Made by a program: the position numbers and the translations under genes. A stretch of DNA of 64,000 nucleotides from a candidate division FCPU426 bacterium (GTDB taxonomy: Bacteria > Oederibacteriota > Muellerivitia > Muellerivitales > Muellerivitaceae), in assembly GCA_027452205.1 (NCBI GenBank), contig DAIDGV010000003.1, positions 124,001 to 188,000 on the forward strand, in the 5' to 3' direction. Each line of letters starts with the position of its first letter. Within the stretch, counting starts at the first letter, position 1. The notes beneath the pieces are model-generated. The model had not been told where the DNA came from and made no database searches. It saw only the letters and a list, made by a program, of their open reading frames with translations. Below, one piece after another: positions 12,366-53,389 of the stretch.

Positions 12366-12394
12366 TTGACAGTACCCCTTGCTTCGCTTACGAT
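12366..12394 (+). promoter_or_regulatory. rpsT promoter
   Basis: TTGACA (12366-12371), 17-nt spacer, TACGAT (12389-12394). The predicted start is near 12401, giving a leader of about 45 nt that contains a CCCC/GGGG hairpin (12411-12427) and GGAGG before the ATG. Confidence 0.75.
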
Positions 12395-46117: not shown

Positions 46118-47365
46118 TTAGACGACAATCCGCTCGTTCTGCACCAGGTCTTCCCAAGTCTGGCGTTCACGGGCCACCGCGAAGCGGCTGCCGCGAACAA
46201 CGACCTCGGGCGGCAAAGGCCTGGCGTTGTAGGTGCTTCCCATCACGCTGCCGTAAGCCCCAGCGGAGAAAACCACCACCAAATCACCCCTTTTCATCAA
46301 AGGCAACTTGCGGCCTTTGGCGAAAAAGTCACCTGACTCGCAGATCGGCCCCACCACATCCACCACCTGCTTGGGCGCTTGAGGGCCCTGGGCTGGCGCG
46401 ATTCGATGATAAGCTTCGTAAAGGGACGGACGGATCAGTTCACCCATGCCTGAATCAAGGATATAAAAGGTCTTGCTGCCGCTTTGTTTCACATAGGTTA
46501 CCTTGGACAACAACACACCCGAATTGCCCGAAATGAACCGGCCCGGTTCCAACACCAAGGTAGCGTTCAACCGCTTGATGACCGGCAAGACCAAAGCCGC
46601 GTACTGGGAGGCCTTCGGGGGCTTTTCGCCCTTGTAGTCGATACCGTAGCCGCCACCCAGATTGACCGTATGGATCGGGAAACCTTCTTTACGGAGTTGG
46701 AGAACCAGCTTTTCAACGACTTTGGCCGCACGGCCCACCGGGGCCGTCTGGGTCATTTGACTGCCAATATGAGCATGCACCCCAGTCCATTGGATCGAGC
46801 GGGACTGACGGACTACCTTGATGACCTTATCCACATCGCCTAAAAAAACGCCGAACTTGGTCTCTTTTTTACCGGTCGTAATGTAGTGATGGGTATGGGG
46901 ATCCACATCCGGATTGAATCGGATAGCAATGGGAGCGGTTTTTTTCATCCGGGCCGCCACCTCGTTGATGGCCAATATCTCCGGAATGGATTCCACATTG
47001 AAATAACGGATGCCCTCGTGCAAAGCGTAAGCGATCTCTTCGTCGGTTTTGCCTACGCCGGCAAAGATGATCTTGCTGGCCGGCACGCCCGCCGAACGGG
47101 CTTTGAATAATTCCCCGCCCGAGACCACATCGGCACCGCAACCCAATTTGGCCAAGGCATTGACCACCGACAGGTTGCCATTGGCTTTCAGCGAATAGGC
47201 GACCAGATGCGGAACGGAGCGATAAGCTTGGTCGATCTCTTTGAACCGGTCCTCAAAAGCCGAAAGGCTGTAAACATAAGCGGGCGTACCCACCTTATCA
47301 GCGATCTTGGACAAAGCCACTCCATCCGCCATCCATTGGTTGTTCTTAAAGTGAAATCCGTTCAT
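46118..47365 (-). CDS. lysA: Diaminopimelate decarboxylase
   Basis: 415 residues. A PLP enzyme that makes lysine from meso-diaminopimelate. The PLP lysine is in VAYSLKANGN. HAHIGSQ, GGGYGIDY, EPGRFI and the substrate-binding CESGDFFAKGR are visible. It sits 7 nt after argH, so lysine and arginine genes share an operon. Confidence 0.96.
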   Translation of the reverse strand: MNGFHFKNNQWMADGVALSKIADKVGTPAYVYSLSAFEDRFKEIDQAYRSVPHLVAYSLKANGNLSVVNALAKLGCGADVVSGGELFKARSAGVPASKIIFAGVGKTDEEIAYALHEGIRYFNVESIPEILAINEVAARMKKTAPIAIRFNPDVDPHTHHYITTGKKETKFGVFLGDVDKVIKVVRQSRSIQWTGVHAHIGSQMTQTAPVGRAAKVVEKLVLQLRKEGFPIHTVNLGGGYGIDYKGEKPPKASQYAALVLPVIKRLNATLVLEPGRFISGNSGVLLSKVTYVKQSGSKTFYILDSGMGELIRPSLYEAYHRIAPAQGPQAPKQVVDVVGPICESGDFFAKGRKLPLMKRGDLVVVFSAGAYGSVMGSTYNARPLPPEVVVRGSRFAVARERQTWEDLVQNERIVV

Positions 47366-47372
47366 TATTCCC

Positions 47373-48776
47373 TCACAAATGTTTTAAGTGATGTTTGATC
47401 TCAGCGGATTGCTTCTTGATCAAGGTCGCTTGATCCACGACATTCTTCGGCGAAGTGCCGCCCACCGCTTTCTTTTGAGCCACCGAATGATGGACCGATA
47501 GGTTATCAGCCGTGCCCTTCGGGAAAGCTGGGGAGAACTTTTTGAATTCGTGATCGGTCAGGTCTTGCAATCTCTTGCCCCGCTCAATGCTATAGCACAC
47601 AACATTGCCAACGACTTCATGGGCCTGGCGGAAAGCCATACCCTCTTGGACCAAGATATCGGCCAAGTCGGTCGCTAAAAGGGTCAGGTCCATATCGGCT
47701 ACTTGAGCCATCTTTTCCCGTTGGAAGCGAACCGTCGACAAGAAACCCTTCATGGTCCGGAGCGAACCCACGACCGTATCCGTCGAGTCAAAAACAAAGT
47801 GTTTGTCTTCCTGCAGGTCGCGGTTATAAGCCAAGGGTAACCCCTTGAGGACCGTCAAAAGACCCATCAAGTTGCCGAAGACCCGTCCGGTCTTGCCACG
47901 GACCAATTCAGCCACATCGGGATTCTTCTTTTGAGGCATCAAACTGGATCCCGTCGCAAAAGCGTCGTCCATTTCGATAAAACCGAATTCGGTCGTCGCC
48001 CAAAGGATCAGGTCCTCGGAGATACGGGATAAATGCATTTGGGTGGTCGAGGCCGCAGCTAAAAAGTCCACATAAACGTCCCGGTCCGAGACCGCGTCTA
48101 AACTATTCTGTAACACTGAATGGAAACCCAATTGGCGGGCGGTAAATTCCCTATCAAAAGGATGATTGGTTCCCGCCAAAGCACCCGACCCCAAAGGTAG
48201 CGCGTCCGCGCGGTCCCAAGCGGTCAAGAAACGGTCCATGTCTCGGATCAGCATGAAGGCATAGGCTGACAAATGATGGCCTAGGGTTACCGGCATGGCC
48301 CTTTGCAAATGGGTATAGCCCGGCATGAGGGTATCTTTTTCTTTCGCGGCCAGATCGCAGATAACGTCGATCAATTCGATGCCTGCGGTTACCACTTCTT
48401 TAACAGCATGGCGCAGGTATAAACGGAAATCGGTTGCGACTTGGTCGTTACGGGAACGCCCGGTGTGGAGCTTCCCTCCCAAGGGGCCCACTAAGCGCAC
48501 CAAGGCTTTTTCCACAGCCGTATGGATATCTTCCAAGCTGGAATCCAAAGGCAACTTACCAGCCGCCAACATCTTTTTGATCTTTTGAAGGCCCGCGACC
48601 AGCTTTTTACCTTCAGCAGCGGTCAAAAGCTTGGCTTTCACTAAAGTGCGAACATGAGCGATGCTGCCATCAATATCGAAGGGACCTAAACGGTGATCGA
48701 ACGAGATCGACTCCGTAAAGGCTTCGACTTGCGGATCGGTGGACTTTTGAAATCTCCCGCCCCATGTCTTTTTCAT
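47373..48776 (-). CDS. argH: Argininosuccinate lyase
   Basis: 467 residues. It cleaves argininosuccinate to arginine and fumarate. The fumarase/aspartase signature [12 protein letters not shown] is intact, with [31 protein letters not shown] and [18 protein letters not shown]. The ATG overlaps the argG stop. Confidence 0.97.
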
Positions 48777-49981
48777 TTGGTTTTCCTTTTCATGCTGCCC
48801 ACCACCTTCATAGGCAAACCGAACAAACGAATGAACCCTTCAGCGTCCTTTTGGTTATAGACCTCGTCTTCGTTAAAGGTCGCGAGGTCTTCTTGGTATA
48901 AGGAATAAGGCGAACGGATACCGGTAGCTGTCACACGACCCGGATTGAATTCCACCCGAACGTCACCCGTCACGTTCTTTTGGGCTTCTTCAAAAAAAGC
49001 CTCGATGCTTTCACGCAGTGGCGCGAACCATTGCCCGTTATAGATCATCTCGGCATATTTGACCGACATGACCTGGCTGTAATGCAGGGTGTCTCGTTCG
49101 ACCGTCAAGGTCTGCAAGGCCCGATGGGCTTCATAAAGGACGGTCGCGCCCGGGGCTTCATAGACCCCACGGCTCTTCATGCCGACCAAGCGATTCTCGA
49201 CAATATCGATTCGGCCCACGCCATAGGCGGCGCCGAGCTTGTTCAACCTTTCGACCAAAGCGATAGCGCCCAGCTTTTTACCATTCAACCCGACTGGAAT
49301 ACCCTCTTTGAAATTTACGACAATGTTTGTCGGCTTCTTCGGGGCCTTTGCCGGATCTTTAGTCGTCAAGAACACATGTTCCGAAGGAGCGTTCCAGGGA
49401 TCTTCCAATTCCCCGCCTTCATGACTCAAGTGCCAGAGGTTCCCGTCCATGGAATAGGGCCTCTTCTTGGTCACTGGGATTTCGATACCATGACGCTCGG
49501 CATAGTCGATCGCTTCATCACGGGAACGAATATCCCACTCACGCCAGGGGGCAATGATCTTCAAGTGAGGGGCCAGGGCCATCACCGTCAATTCGAAACG
49601 AACTTGGTCGTTCCCTTTACCGGTGGCGCCGTGACAAATAGCGTCCGCGCCCTCTTTTAAAGCCACATCCACAAGCCCTTTAGCAATAGCTGGCCGGGCC
49701 AAAGAAGTACCCAACAGATAAATGTTCTCGTACTTAGCTTGCGCCCGAAGCGCCTTGAAGCAATAGTCTTCCAGAAAGGTTTTGCGTTGATCGGCCACAT
49801 AGGCCTTGATGGCCCCGGTCTTCAGGGCTTTTTTGCGGGCGGGCTCGACTTCTTTTCCTTGGCCGACGTCGGAGATGAAAGCTACCACTTGGCAGCCGTA
49901 GTTCTCCTTGAGCCAAGGAATGATGATGGAGGTATCCAGCCCTCCTGAATAAGCCAAAACGACCTTGTTCACTTGTGCCAT
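48773..49981 (-). CDS. argG: Argininosuccinate synthase
   Basis: 402 residues from the ATG at 49979-49981 with GGGAGAG upstream. It joins citrulline and aspartate using ATP. The ATP pyrophosphatase motif [32 protein letters not shown] and the C-terminal [15 protein letters not shown] are typical. It lies 17 nt after argF. Confidence 0.97.
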
Positions 49982-49998
49982 GGTTCTCTCCCGATTAT

Positions 49999-50919
49999 TC
50001 AAGCCATCATATGGATCAACAGTGCCTTTTGGGCATGAAGCCGATTTTCCGCCTGGTCAAAGACCAGGGAACGGTTTCCGTCCATCACTCCCGCTGAAAC
50101 TTCCTCGCCGCGATGCGCGGGCAGGCAATGCAAAAAGATCGCCTTAGGCGATTCGGCCATGAGCTTTTCATTGACCTCGAAGCCCTTGAAGGCGTTCAGG
50201 CGTTTGTTCTTTTCCGCTTCTTGGCCCATGCTGGTCCAAACATCAGTGTAGACCGCATCCGCGTTCTTCGCCGAACCGGTCACCGTATGGGTCACTTCGA
50301 TCCGGCTACCGTTCTTGACACCCTCAATTTGGGCCCGCTTCAGGATGGTCTTATCCGGTTCATAACCCGCCGGGCAGACCAATTTGAAATGCATGCCCGT
50401 CTTGGCCGCGCCGATCATCAGGCTATGCGCCACGTTGTTCCCATCGCCCACAAACACCAACCGCAAACCCTTGAGCTTGCCATAGTGTTCCTGCAAAGTT
50501 TGAAGGTCGGCCAGCGTCTGGCAGGGATGGTGGGCGTCCGAAAGACCATTGATGACCGGAATTGAGGCATTCGCCGCCAATTCTTCCACGGTCTTATGCG
50601 CGAAAGTACGGATCATAATGCCTTGAACGAACCGGGAAAGGACCTTGGCCGTATCGGCGATGGTTTCCCCCCGACCGATTTGGATATCGTTCCCGCTCAA
50701 GAAAAGGGCATGCCCACCCAACTGGTACATCCCCACTTCAAAGGAAACCCGGGTCCGGGTCGAACTTTTCTCAAAGATCATGCCGAGGCATTGACCCTTC
50801 AGCTCTTTCTTATATTTCGAAGGCTTTGCTTTCACCTTGGCGGCCAGATCCAGCAACCCAGCCAATTCTTTATTAGAAATCTCTTCAAGTGTCAGTAAAT
50901 GACGGACTTTTTTGGACAT
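49999..50919 (-). CDS. argF: Ornithine carbamoyltransferase
   Basis: 306 residues from the ATG at 50917-50919 with AGGGGAG upstream; a longer frame would overlap argD without homology. It makes citrulline from ornithine and carbamoyl phosphate. The STRTR carbamoyl-phosphate loop ([13 protein letters not shown]), HPCQTLAD and [15 protein letters not shown] (ornithine-binding) are clear. Confidence 0.96.
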
Positions 50920-50929
50920 AAGGCTCCCC

Positions 50930-52129
50930 TTAACCCTGCAGCTCGACGGCGATGGCCTTGCGCAGCTTTTCCATGGCAAGATTGATCTCTTCCTCGCCAA
51001 TGATCAAAGGCGGCAGGAACCGAAGGACCGTCGCATGGGCCGATCCGAGCAGCAGACCTTCCCTCACGCACTTTTGGACTAACGAAGAGGCATCACGGGT
51101 CATTTGCAAACCCTGAACCAGCCCCATTCCGCGGACTTCTGTAAAAAGCTGGGGAAACTCGACAATGAGCGCGGCCAGCTGCGACTTGAGATACTCGCCT
51201 TGTTTGGCGGAGTTAGCGACCACATCCTTCAGGATGATGGCCTCGATATTGGCGACCGCAGCGGCACTGACAATCGGGTTACCGCCAAAGGTCGAAGCAT
51301 GATCTCCTGGTTTGAACCCCTGAGCCACTTGGTTGGTCACCAACATAGCGCCCATGGGCAATCCGGCTCCTAAGGCCTTCGCTGAGGTCATGATGTCCGG
51401 TTCAATTCCATAGTGTTCATAGGCCCACATCTTGCCCGTACGGCCCAGACCTGTTTGCACTTCATCCAGAATGAGCAAAATACCGTTTTCGCGGGTCAAG
51501 TCCCTCAGTTCTTTAAGGAACTTTTGATCCGCCGGATGGATACCACCTTCGCACTGGATGGTTTCCAGAAGAACCGCGGCGGTCTTATCGCCGATGAGCT
51601 TTTTCACGCTTTCGATATCGTTATAGGTAGCGAACTTGATACCGGGCAACAGGGGTCCGCAGCCTTCCTGATATTTCTTTTGGCCCGTGACCGACAAGGC
51701 GCCATAAGTCCGCCCGTGGAAGGAATTATCAAAGCTAATGATCTCGAACCGGTCCTGACCGAGCCGGCTGAAATACTTCCGGGCCAGCTTGAGCGAGGCT
51801 TCGATGGCTTCCGCGCCCGAGTTACAGAAAAAGACCTTCTGGGCAAAGGATATCTCGCACAAAAGCTTCGCCAAACGGACATTGGGTTCGTTGTAGTAAT
51901 AGTTGGAAACATGACCGATCTTGCGGGCCGTATCGGCAATGGCGTTCACTACCTCTGGATAGGCCTGGCCCAACCCGTTGACCGCGATGCCGGAGAAAAA
52001 GTCGAGGTAAACGACCCTTTCAGAATCATAGATGTAATTGCCATCGCCTCGCATAAGGACGATCTTTTGCCGGTTATAGACCGGCAGTAGATAATCATCG
52101 CCGTTTTGGATGATCCGAAAGGTTTGCAT
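50930..52129 (-). CDS. argD: Acetylornithine aminotransferase
   Basis: 399 residues from the ATG at 52127-52129 with GAGGG 4 nt upstream. The longer frame would run through a terminator hairpin and was rejected. The PLP enzyme shows FFCNSGAEAIEASLKLARKY, LILDEVQTGLGRTGKMWA and the lysine in SAKALGAGLPMGAML. In several bacteria the same enzyme also serves as N-succinyl-diaminopimelate aminotransferase, which would fit the dap genes here. It heads the argDFGH-lysA operon. Confidence 0.94.
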   Translation of the reverse strand: MQTFRIIQNGDDYLLPVYNRQKIVLMRGDGNYIYDSERVVYLDFFSGIAVNGLGQAYPEVVNAIADTARKIGHVSNYYYNEPNVRLAKLLCEISFAQKVFFCNSGAEAIEASLKLARKYFSRLGQDRFEIISFDNSFHGRTYGALSVTGQKKYQEGCGPLLPGIKFATYNDIESVKKLIGDKTAAVLLETIQCEGGIHPADQKFLKELRDLTRENGILLILDEVQTGLGRTGKMWAYEHYGIEPDIMTSAKALGAGLPMGAMLVTNQVAQGFKPGDHASTFGGNPIVSAAAVANIEAIILKDVVANSAKQGEYLKSQLAALIVEFPQLFTEVRGMGLVQGLQMTRDASSLVQKCVREGLLLGSAHATVLRFLPPLIIGEEEINLAMEKLRKAIAVELQG

Positions 52130-52154
52130 GGCGCCCTCGTTTGTCCTCAAAATG

Positions 52155-52188
52155 AAAAAAGTCCCCGTGAAGGAATTCACGAAGACTT
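52155..52188 (-). terminator. Intrinsic terminator-like hairpin in the argD leader
   Basis: On the minus strand a 13-bp stem (two G-U pairs) with a 4-nt UUCC loop is followed by T6. It lies 25 nt before the argD start codon and 4-5 nt after the predicted argD transcript start. Confidence 0.85.
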
Positions 52189-52198
52189 GAGAGAAAGC

Positions 52199-52227
52199 AT
52201 CTTAATCGTTGGAAAAAGGCCTGTCAA
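52199..52227 (-). promoter_or_regulatory. Strong argD promoter
   Basis: Minus strand TTGACA (52222-52227), 17-nt spacer, TAAGAT (52199-52204): perfect -35 and optimal spacing. It lies just after the dgt stop codon and upstream of the hairpin, so argD transcripts must pass that hairpin. Confidence 0.8.
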
Positions 52228-52243
52228 CCGGCCCCAAAACGGC

Positions 52244-53389
52244 TCAAACCCGCATGGAAGGCTCGGTCAATTTCTCAAATTCCTCAATAGCATATCGGTC
52301 GGTCATGCCCGCGATATAGTCCGCGATGACCCGACGCGTCGGCTCGACCTTGTTCTTGATCTTGTCCCGAGGTGTGGCCGGCAGGATATCCGGGTTGGCT
52401 TCGTATAAATGGAAGAGTTCTTGGATGACCTTGGCCACCTTGGTTTCCATTCGAGTCACCCGGGGATGGCGGTACATATTGTCGAAGAGGTATTTCTTCA
52501 TGGTCAAAAAATCGACTCGGCAGGCATCGGAAAAGGCCGCCAGTTCCTCGGGACATTGACGGACGTCCTGGACGCTCATGACGTTGAACTTACCGATCCG
52601 TTCCATCGTGTGGTTCAAAATGTCCGTGACCAGTTCATCGATGATCTGGCGGACCGTTTGGTACTTGATCTTGTCCCGGGTCAAGTGCGGATAAAGCGAC
52701 TTCACCTTATCGAAATTGCGTTTCCACAAAGGGACTTCATTCAGCCCCTCAAAGTTCAAAAGTCCCGAGGTCAGGCCATCATCCAAGTCATGGGCCGTAT
52801 AAGCGGTTTCATCGGCCAGATCGACGATCTGGGCCTCTAAAGTGTACTGTTCCCCGGCGCCGCCCGGCCTGTCATAGCGGGTACGGTGTTTATCGATGCC
52901 TTCCAACACCTCGTAAGAAAGATTAAGGCCCTGGAACAAGGGATAGCGATCTTCTAAGTAGGTAACAATGCGGTAGCTCTGGGCGTTATGTTCGAAACCG
53001 CCGTCGTTCTTCATCAGTTCGTTTAACACCTTCTCGCCACTATGTCCAAAAGGCGTGTGCCCCAGGTCATGGGCCAAGGCCACTGCTTCGGTCAGGTCCT
53101 GGTTCAGCCGCAGCGCCCGGGCAATGGACCCGGCTATCTGCGCAACCTCTAAGGTATGAGTAATTCTCGTGCGGTAATAATCACCTTCATGATTCACGAA
53201 AACCTGGGTCTTATATTGAAGCCTGCGGAAAGCGGTCGAATGGATCACTCGGTCACGGTCGCGCTGAAAGATGGTCCGATAAGGATGGTCCGGTTCGGCG
53301 TAATGACGGCCTTGGCTGGTCTTGGATTGTTGGGCGTAAGGCGCTAAGACCTGCAATTCGATATTCTCAAGCTCTTCACGGGTTCTCAT
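52244..53389 (-). CDS. dgt: Deoxyguanosinetriphosphate triphosphohydrolase-like protein
   Basis: 381 residues, an HD-domain dNTPase. RVIHSTAFRRLQYKTQVF, RITHTLEVAQIAGSIARAL, AHDLGHTPFGHSGE (HD pair) and VDLADETAYTAHDLDDGL are diagnostic. It converts dGTP to deoxyguanosine and triphosphate, or acts on other dNTPs. A deoxynucleoside kinase lies 10 kb downstream. Confidence 0.92.
   Translation of the reverse strand: MRTREELENIELQVLAPYAQQSKTSQGRHYAEPDHPYRTIFQRDRDRVIHSTAFRRLQYKTQVFVNHEGDYYRTRITHTLEVAQIAGSIARALRLNQDLTEAVALAHDLGHTPFGHSGEKVLNELMKNDGGFEHNAQSYRIVTYLEDRYPLFQGLNLSYEVLEGIDKHRTRYDRPGGAGEQYTLEAQIVDLADETAYTAHDLDDGLTSGLLNFEGLNEVPLWKRNFDKVKSLYPHLTRDKIKYQTVRQIIDELVTDILNHTMERIGKFNVMSVQDVRQCPEELAAFSDACRVDFLTMKKYLFDNMYRHPRVTRMETKVAKVIQELFHLYEANPDILPATPRDKIKNKVEPTRRVIADYIAGMTDRYAIEEFEKLTEPSMRV

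Follow-up and report, generated by a model that had tools for sequence, protein, structure and literature searches.

Why should a strong promoter be followed at once, before the first gene of an arginine operon, by a hairpin of the kind that ends transcription? The argD locus of an uncultured bacterium of candidate division FCPU426 raises this question, and we have approached it by comparison within one order of that division. The window (that is, the whole stretch of 64,000 nucleotides that was analysed) carries an operon of the order argD-argF-argG-argH-lysA, conserved in relatives, the product names being given from protein similarity and gene order. A sequence-only reading of the window had described a promoter TTGACA-N17-TAAGAT after dgt and a 13-bp hairpin with T6, with argD 25 nt farther on. 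The promoter is indeed present at 52227-52199 and the other elements at 52188-52155 and 52129, all on the minus strand. The features of the locus are the following:

52244..53389, minus strand: dgt (dGTPase-like), the upstream neighbour on the same strand
52228..52235, minus strand: conserved flank GGGGCCGG adjacent to the -35, consensus GGNCYGR
52199..52227, minus strand: sigma-70-type promoter TTGACA-N17-TAAGAT of the argD operon
52227-52222, minus strand: -35 hexamer TTGACA
52204-52199, minus strand: -10 hexamer TAAGAT, with a 17-nt spacer to the -35
52189..52198, minus strand: gap GCTTTCTCTC between -10 and stem, holding the predicted transcription start
52188-52159, minus strand: 13-bp terminator-type hairpin AAGTCTTCGTGAA-TTCC-TTCACGGGGACTT, at the 5' extremity of the predicted transcript
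52160-52155, minus strand: T6 run, 2 of its T pairing within the stem
52149..52160, minus strand: T-tract TTTTTTCATTTT, in the form of the lineage's ordinary terminators
52129-52127, minus strand: argD ATG, 25 nt past the T run
50930..52129, minus strand: argD, acetylornithine aminotransferase, first gene of the operon (open reading frame, with order conserved in relatives)
46118..50922, minus strand: argF, argG, argH and lysA, the downstream genes of the operon
46060-46041, minus strand: terminator-like site after lysA

Read 5' to 3' on the minus strand, the leader thus runs from the dgt stop (52244) through GGGGCCGG, TTGACA-G, TAAGAT, GCTTTCTCTC and the hairpin to the argD ATG. The hairpin, which starts 10 nt after the -10 and has 13 pairs when G.U pairs are counted, has a folding energy of -16.5 kcal/mol (z = -5.6 relative to dinucleotide shuffles). 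From its distance to the -10, the transcription start is predicted at about 52190-52192, and the stretch from the hairpin (52159) to the argD ATG (52129) reads TTTTCATTTT.

Conservation of the leader across the order

The comparison set consists of the window genome (G000), seven other genomes of its family and one further genome of the same order, found via relatives of argD. The same leader, which the sequence-only reading had suggested seeking in related genomes, was found before argD in 9/9 genomes of the order: as promoter, hairpin and U-tract in all eight family genomes, and in a diverged form in the order-level relative, where the -10 is TATAAT and the stem lies about 30 nt farther downstream. 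Among the eight family genomes, mean pairwise identity is 100% for TTGACAG, 96% for the -10 hexamer and 45% for the spacer between -35 and -10 (17 nt, 18 in one genome). The gap from the -10 to the stem is 9-14 nt in the family, varying with where the stem is counted from, and the predicted start falls 2-8 nt before the stem, its position being deduced from the -10.

The hairpin is stable against shuffles in the eight family members (z from -3.9 to -6.3) and weaker in the order-level relative (z = -2.0), with energies spanning -16 to -36 kcal/mol. The sequence of the inner stems is replaced wholesale among relatives with pairing kept: two-sided changes were counted in 6 cells, as against 2.0 +/- 1.2 in shuffles and 2-4 with slid partners, a count taken on nine related sequences (MAGs) and so comprising few independent events. 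A covariance model built on promoter and hairpin together has its top match at argD in each of the nine order genomes, and gave no match at E <= 0.001 in 36 other genomes of the phylum. Its weaker matches are mostly ordinary terminators directly past stop codons. We also considered that the leader might be a dispersed repeat, and rejected this, the weaker matches (e.g. rplL) being such post-stop terminators devoid of a promoter. In G007 one weak match (C265:6604-6673) lies ahead of an ABC-transporter gene; it has a promoter, but its hairpin is poor.

The pattern GGNCYGR(N)TTGACAG marks argD in 7/9 genomes; three further matches lie inside open reading frames and look like chance. The flank GGGGCCGG also forms the left arm of an irregular inverted repeat round the -35; it may contribute to a strong (extended) promoter or be bound by a regulator. 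A hairpin formed by this repeat was discarded as a dgt terminator, being weak and irregular.

Motifs of this kind by themselves prove nothing, because scan matches do not exceed those in shuffles: the region holds 10 promoter matches (13.2 expected) and 24 terminator matches (25.4 expected). It is conservation in nine genomes that raises the argD leader above chance. In a wider count, over 1.12 Mb of stretches of the window genome (39% of it), a promoter-like site ends 0-25 nt upstream of 23 of the 2087 terminator-like sites, and 13-17 such pairs occur at four control offsets. Among the 23, argD alone combines a perfect TTGACA-N17, a compact canonical hairpin and a downstream protein gene. The nearest other case, outside the window (C24:180848-181000 in G000), has TTGACT-N16-TAGACT and then at once a terminator CCCTCGGGCCCCATTTCCCGGGGG-TTTTT; a tRNA gene, apparently tRNA-Asn, follows some 50 nt farther on.

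Does the leader belong to argD or to dgt?

In 6/8 family genomes the T-tract lies only about 17-35 nt from argD, which leaves no place for a promoter, so that all argDFGH-lysA transcripts, whatever their origin, must pass the hairpin there. The earlier claim that the whole operon reads through the hairpin thus holds in these six genomes. The gene dgt adjoins argD in 8/9 genomes. In the ninth, G007, it is about 2 kb away, and promoter and hairpin stay with argD; since the leader remains with argD there, the hairpin is not merely the terminator of dgt. The sequence-only reading had itself named a way in which it could fail, namely that the hairpin just ends dgt transcripts and argD starts downstream of it. 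The comparison speaks against this, given the G007 leader and, in the six genomes, the lack of space for a promoter below the hairpin. The 2 kb in G007 (L036, 3954-6001) contain membrane-protein-like reading frames and are peculiar to this genome.

Additional DNA separates dgt from the promoter in G002 and G003, and hairpin from argD in G002 and G006; in the family genomes there is none between promoter and hairpin. Because these insertions fall outside that pair, we consider promoter plus hairpin to be the conserved unit. Where dgt adjoins, the hairpin may also end dgt transcripts, as no other strong terminator is present there. Taken at the level of sequence, the comparison supports the view that the promoter is argD's own and that the hairpin is of terminator type.

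What kind of hairpin is it?

The T-tract is kept in all nine leaders. The form GGGRCTTTTT..TTT is enriched over the reversed control in family genomes, mostly several-fold, and rplL terminators resemble the 3' arm and T-tract of the argD leader. This match to the lineage's usual terminator form supports a function in termination and makes a special protein-binding foot less likely; the foot sequence was consequently abandoned as a protein-binding signature. Above AAG/CTT, a T.G or T.A pair is seen in few other terminator-like sites (13/212), a contrast drawn on a leader sample of nine related sequences. The foot could be conserved partly by descent. The hairpin was likewise rejected as a DNA operator, its arms being separated by loops of widely differing length.

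The 5' arm of the argD leader is C-rich (AAGUCCCC..GGGGGCUU). As a separate observation, pyrimidines (CCTCC, CCCTCTTT) often dominate the predicted first transcribed bases at promoter-like sites of the window genome (for example window position 12366, C24:440573 and C1:11447) as well as at the argD and argC promoters, and this is perhaps a feature of strong promoters in the lineage.

Sensors and regulators

No protein of the ArgR family (PF01316) was detected in the nine order genomes, seven of which are >90% complete, while the same search found the family in 9/14 control genomes. With no ArgR-family protein detected no ARG box is expected, which explains why the sequence-only reading had failed to see one. 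That reading had also held that the leader has no room for a T-box or leader peptide, and we concur: no more than about 10 nt lie ahead of the stem, and Rfam finds only tRNAs in the window at the gathering threshold, with no match to a T-box or riboswitch. Nor was an antiterminator found in this space, single-sequence folds giving the hairpin and weak pairings alone. A second structure, in which the 5' end pairs weakly with the ribosome site, was dismissed, since its pairing is not kept in relatives. As for a leader peptide, the sole ATG near the stem sits in the -10, and a ribosome-binding site would not fit. The sequence before the stem holds no purine-rich site, and the predicted starts (GCTTTCTCTC, GCCTTCCTC, ACTTGAAAG, GAAACCC) have no conserved homopolymer. 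With room for neither a further RNA structure nor a T-box or leader peptide, any regulation must act directly on the polymerase or the hairpin.

At argC, the second arginine locus, the promoter is a different one and a leader of the argD type is absent (loci L234-L237, L239 and L238, the last at C3 ~196815-198047 of the window genome, outside the window). A tRNA-Glu(UUC) gene precedes argC in 6/6 family genomes under a shared promoter TTGACTTCC-N-CCCTA[GA]AAT, and a link between glutamate tRNA and the synthesis of arginine from glutamate is possible. Because argC has this different promoter and the tRNA upstream, the leader is not an element shared by an arginine regulon. Together with the lack of an alternative structure, this argues against a shared arginine-sensing RNA element, as far as can be judged from the loci compared.

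Comparison with known leaders

The closest known counterpart is the rimP-leader of rimP-nusA-infB, a conserved terminator 4-130 nt before the gene with no antiterminator (PMC2965389); in S. agalactiae it terminates transcription 31 nt after the start, and feedback by NusA has been proposed (PMC4448216). The argD leader has the sequence features of this type, a hairpin and U-tract between promoter and first gene in 9/9 genomes and no alternative structure, and in both leaders the terminator hairpin is short and the foot of its stem conserved. They differ in the gene concerned and in the 5' arm, which is G-rich in rimP (GGGc..gCCC) and C-rich in argD; the rimP stem motif GGGc(...)gCCC is absent from the argD leader. 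A link of the argD leader to NusA would be conjectural. In the genomes studied here, rimP loci (L254-L261; C24 ~72034-72300 in G000) carry a strong terminator AAAGTGGGCCC..GGCCCACTTTTTTTTT upstream of rimP, and in 7/8 genomes examined rimP is also preceded by another hairpin, GGCCGAAAGGCC, whose tail is T-rich, as in the known rimP-leader. The rimP-type form in these genomes, GGCCgaaaGGCC-T-rich, differs from the argD hairpin; the presence of terminator hairpins upstream of rimP in the same genomes suggests that premature-terminator leaders are in use in the lineage.

The greA leader GraL similarly has its terminator near the start, beginning about 19 nt after it and stopping about two thirds of transcripts; read-through is determined by a transcription factor and, in cis, by the leader itself (PMC6829880). 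There, however, the leader regulates greA itself, and conserved antiterminators have been reported for greA leaders (PMC2965389), whereas none is possible in the argD leader. The pyrG leader of B. subtilis (cited in PMC4448216) has a terminator very near the promoter, reiterative transcription and no riboswitch; it requires the polymerase to slip on a homopolymer where transcription begins, and the predicted argD starts have no conserved homopolymer. Control by ArgR and ARG boxes has the same target pathway, but here no ArgR-family protein was found and any control would come after initiation. In the E. coli ampC attenuator, too, the leader is short and a terminator separates promoter from gene, with growth-rate-dependent read-through. 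The ampC model requires a ribosome-binding site before the hairpin, for which the argD leader has no room.

A proposed read-through gate and its alternatives

We lean, somewhat beyond even balance, towards the view that the leader is a promoter-coupled premature terminator, a read-through gate or minimal attenuator, of argDFGH-lysA. Promoter, hairpin, U-tract, obligatory passage and conservation are read from the sequence, and from them we infer start site, termination and regulation as follows. RNA polymerase would start at the TTGACA/TAAGAT promoter and make a strong hairpin and U-tract within about 35-70 nt; it would then either terminate, releasing a tiny RNA, or continue into argD. The enzymes would come from read-through only, so that operon output might be set by the strength of hairpin and U-tract and by the state of the early elongation complex. 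Candidate inputs are factors of the NusA/NusG/GreA type, effects of nucleotides or of growth rate, or some protein yet to be named, in line with proposals made for the rimP-nusA and greA leaders. The "compact attenuator" of the sequence-only reading is the leading hypothesis: promoter, terminator-type hairpin, obligatory passage and conservation in 9/9 genomes fit it, and regulation of termination, by arginine or otherwise, is hypothetical. For a hairpin that polymerase has to pass, energies from -16 to -36 kcal/mol look strong (published 5'-UTR terminators average -16.5 kcal/mol; PMC2965389), and the weaker hairpin and longer gap of the order-level relative also speak against a gate. A position close to the 5' end is not in itself enough to abolish termination, since in E. 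coli terminators within the first 100 bp of the coding region work efficiently (PMC4824070).

The promoter-stem distance, kept at 9-14 nt while surrounding lengths vary by tens to hundreds of nt, would also be expected of a one-way valve or insulator. The hairpin would then block polymerase coming from dgt or farther upstream and let fresh polymerase from the argD promoter pass, owing to its very short RNA or to bound sigma, and so shield the operon. Early transcribed sequence can alter termination efficiency, according to older work. A same-strand gene always lies upstream, and the dgt-argD interval of the compact genomes has no other strong terminator. Such a valve requires a terminator blind to its nearest promoter, yet termination 31 nt after the start is seen elsewhere (PMC4448216), and we think this reading unlikely. 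We are still more doubtful of an arginine-responsive attenuator with no sensor RNA, in which, in a lineage with no ArgR, an unknown protein or the early polymerase complex would read arginine or nitrogen status and so decide on read-through at a hairpin that begins only a few nucleotides past the transcription start; the argD-specific flank GGNCYGR-TTGACAG would perhaps load the factor at the promoter.

In every family member the stem lies only a few nt from the predicted start, free in sequence and kept in pairing, and it could instead guard the operon mRNA against 5'-end-dependent decay, as ompA and papA leaders do; mRNA-stabilising 5'-terminal stem-loops are established (reviewed in PMC3997798). 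A stabiliser of the ompA type would have its stem about 2-4 nt from the 5' end, and the predicted distance here is 2-8 nt. Stabilisation leaves unexplained the terminator-form T-tract in 9/9 genomes and the 30-nt longer gap of the order-level relative, and we hold it quite improbable as the main function. Least probable, to our mind, are two further readings. That the hairpin is just the terminator of dgt or another upstream gene, with the argD promoter happening to lie between gene and terminator, would suit the genomes, the majority, in which dgt adjoins and no other strong terminator is present; it is hard to reconcile with G007, with a promoter-hairpin spacing that is constrained while the gene-promoter spacing is not, and with the lack of an argD promoter downstream of the hairpin. 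That the pair mainly yields a trans-acting RNA of 35-70 nt, argD read-through being a by-product, is equally improbable: the terminated RNA could be abundant, and the greA-leader RNA GraL has a role in trans (PMC6829880), but the exposed loop and inner stem are conserved neither in sequence nor in length, and just a few unpaired nt precede the stem at the 5' end, which resembles the start regions of several other promoters of the genome.

If the premature-terminator reading is right, the argD leader is a minimal one, with a strong promoter, a terminator that begins within about a DNA turn of it and no alternative structure, kept across an order that apparently lacks ArgR. Should termination be regulated, the regulator would act on RNA polymerase or on the hairpin, and the leader would be a simple system in which to find it; should it be constitutive, a fixed terminator coupled to a promoter could set the output of an operon. 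Either way, this leader type would be extended from genes for transcription factors (rimP-nusA, greA) to amino-acid biosynthesis. As far as the openly accessible literature shows, a premature-terminator leader with no alternative structure is new for an arginine operon; arginine genes are not mentioned in PMC2965389.

A last observation concerns the operon itself. In G002 (L035, 8216-9406) argG is 41% identical to the argG of the window, while its neighbours are 71-80% identical, which suggests that argG was replaced by a distant homologue in that genome.
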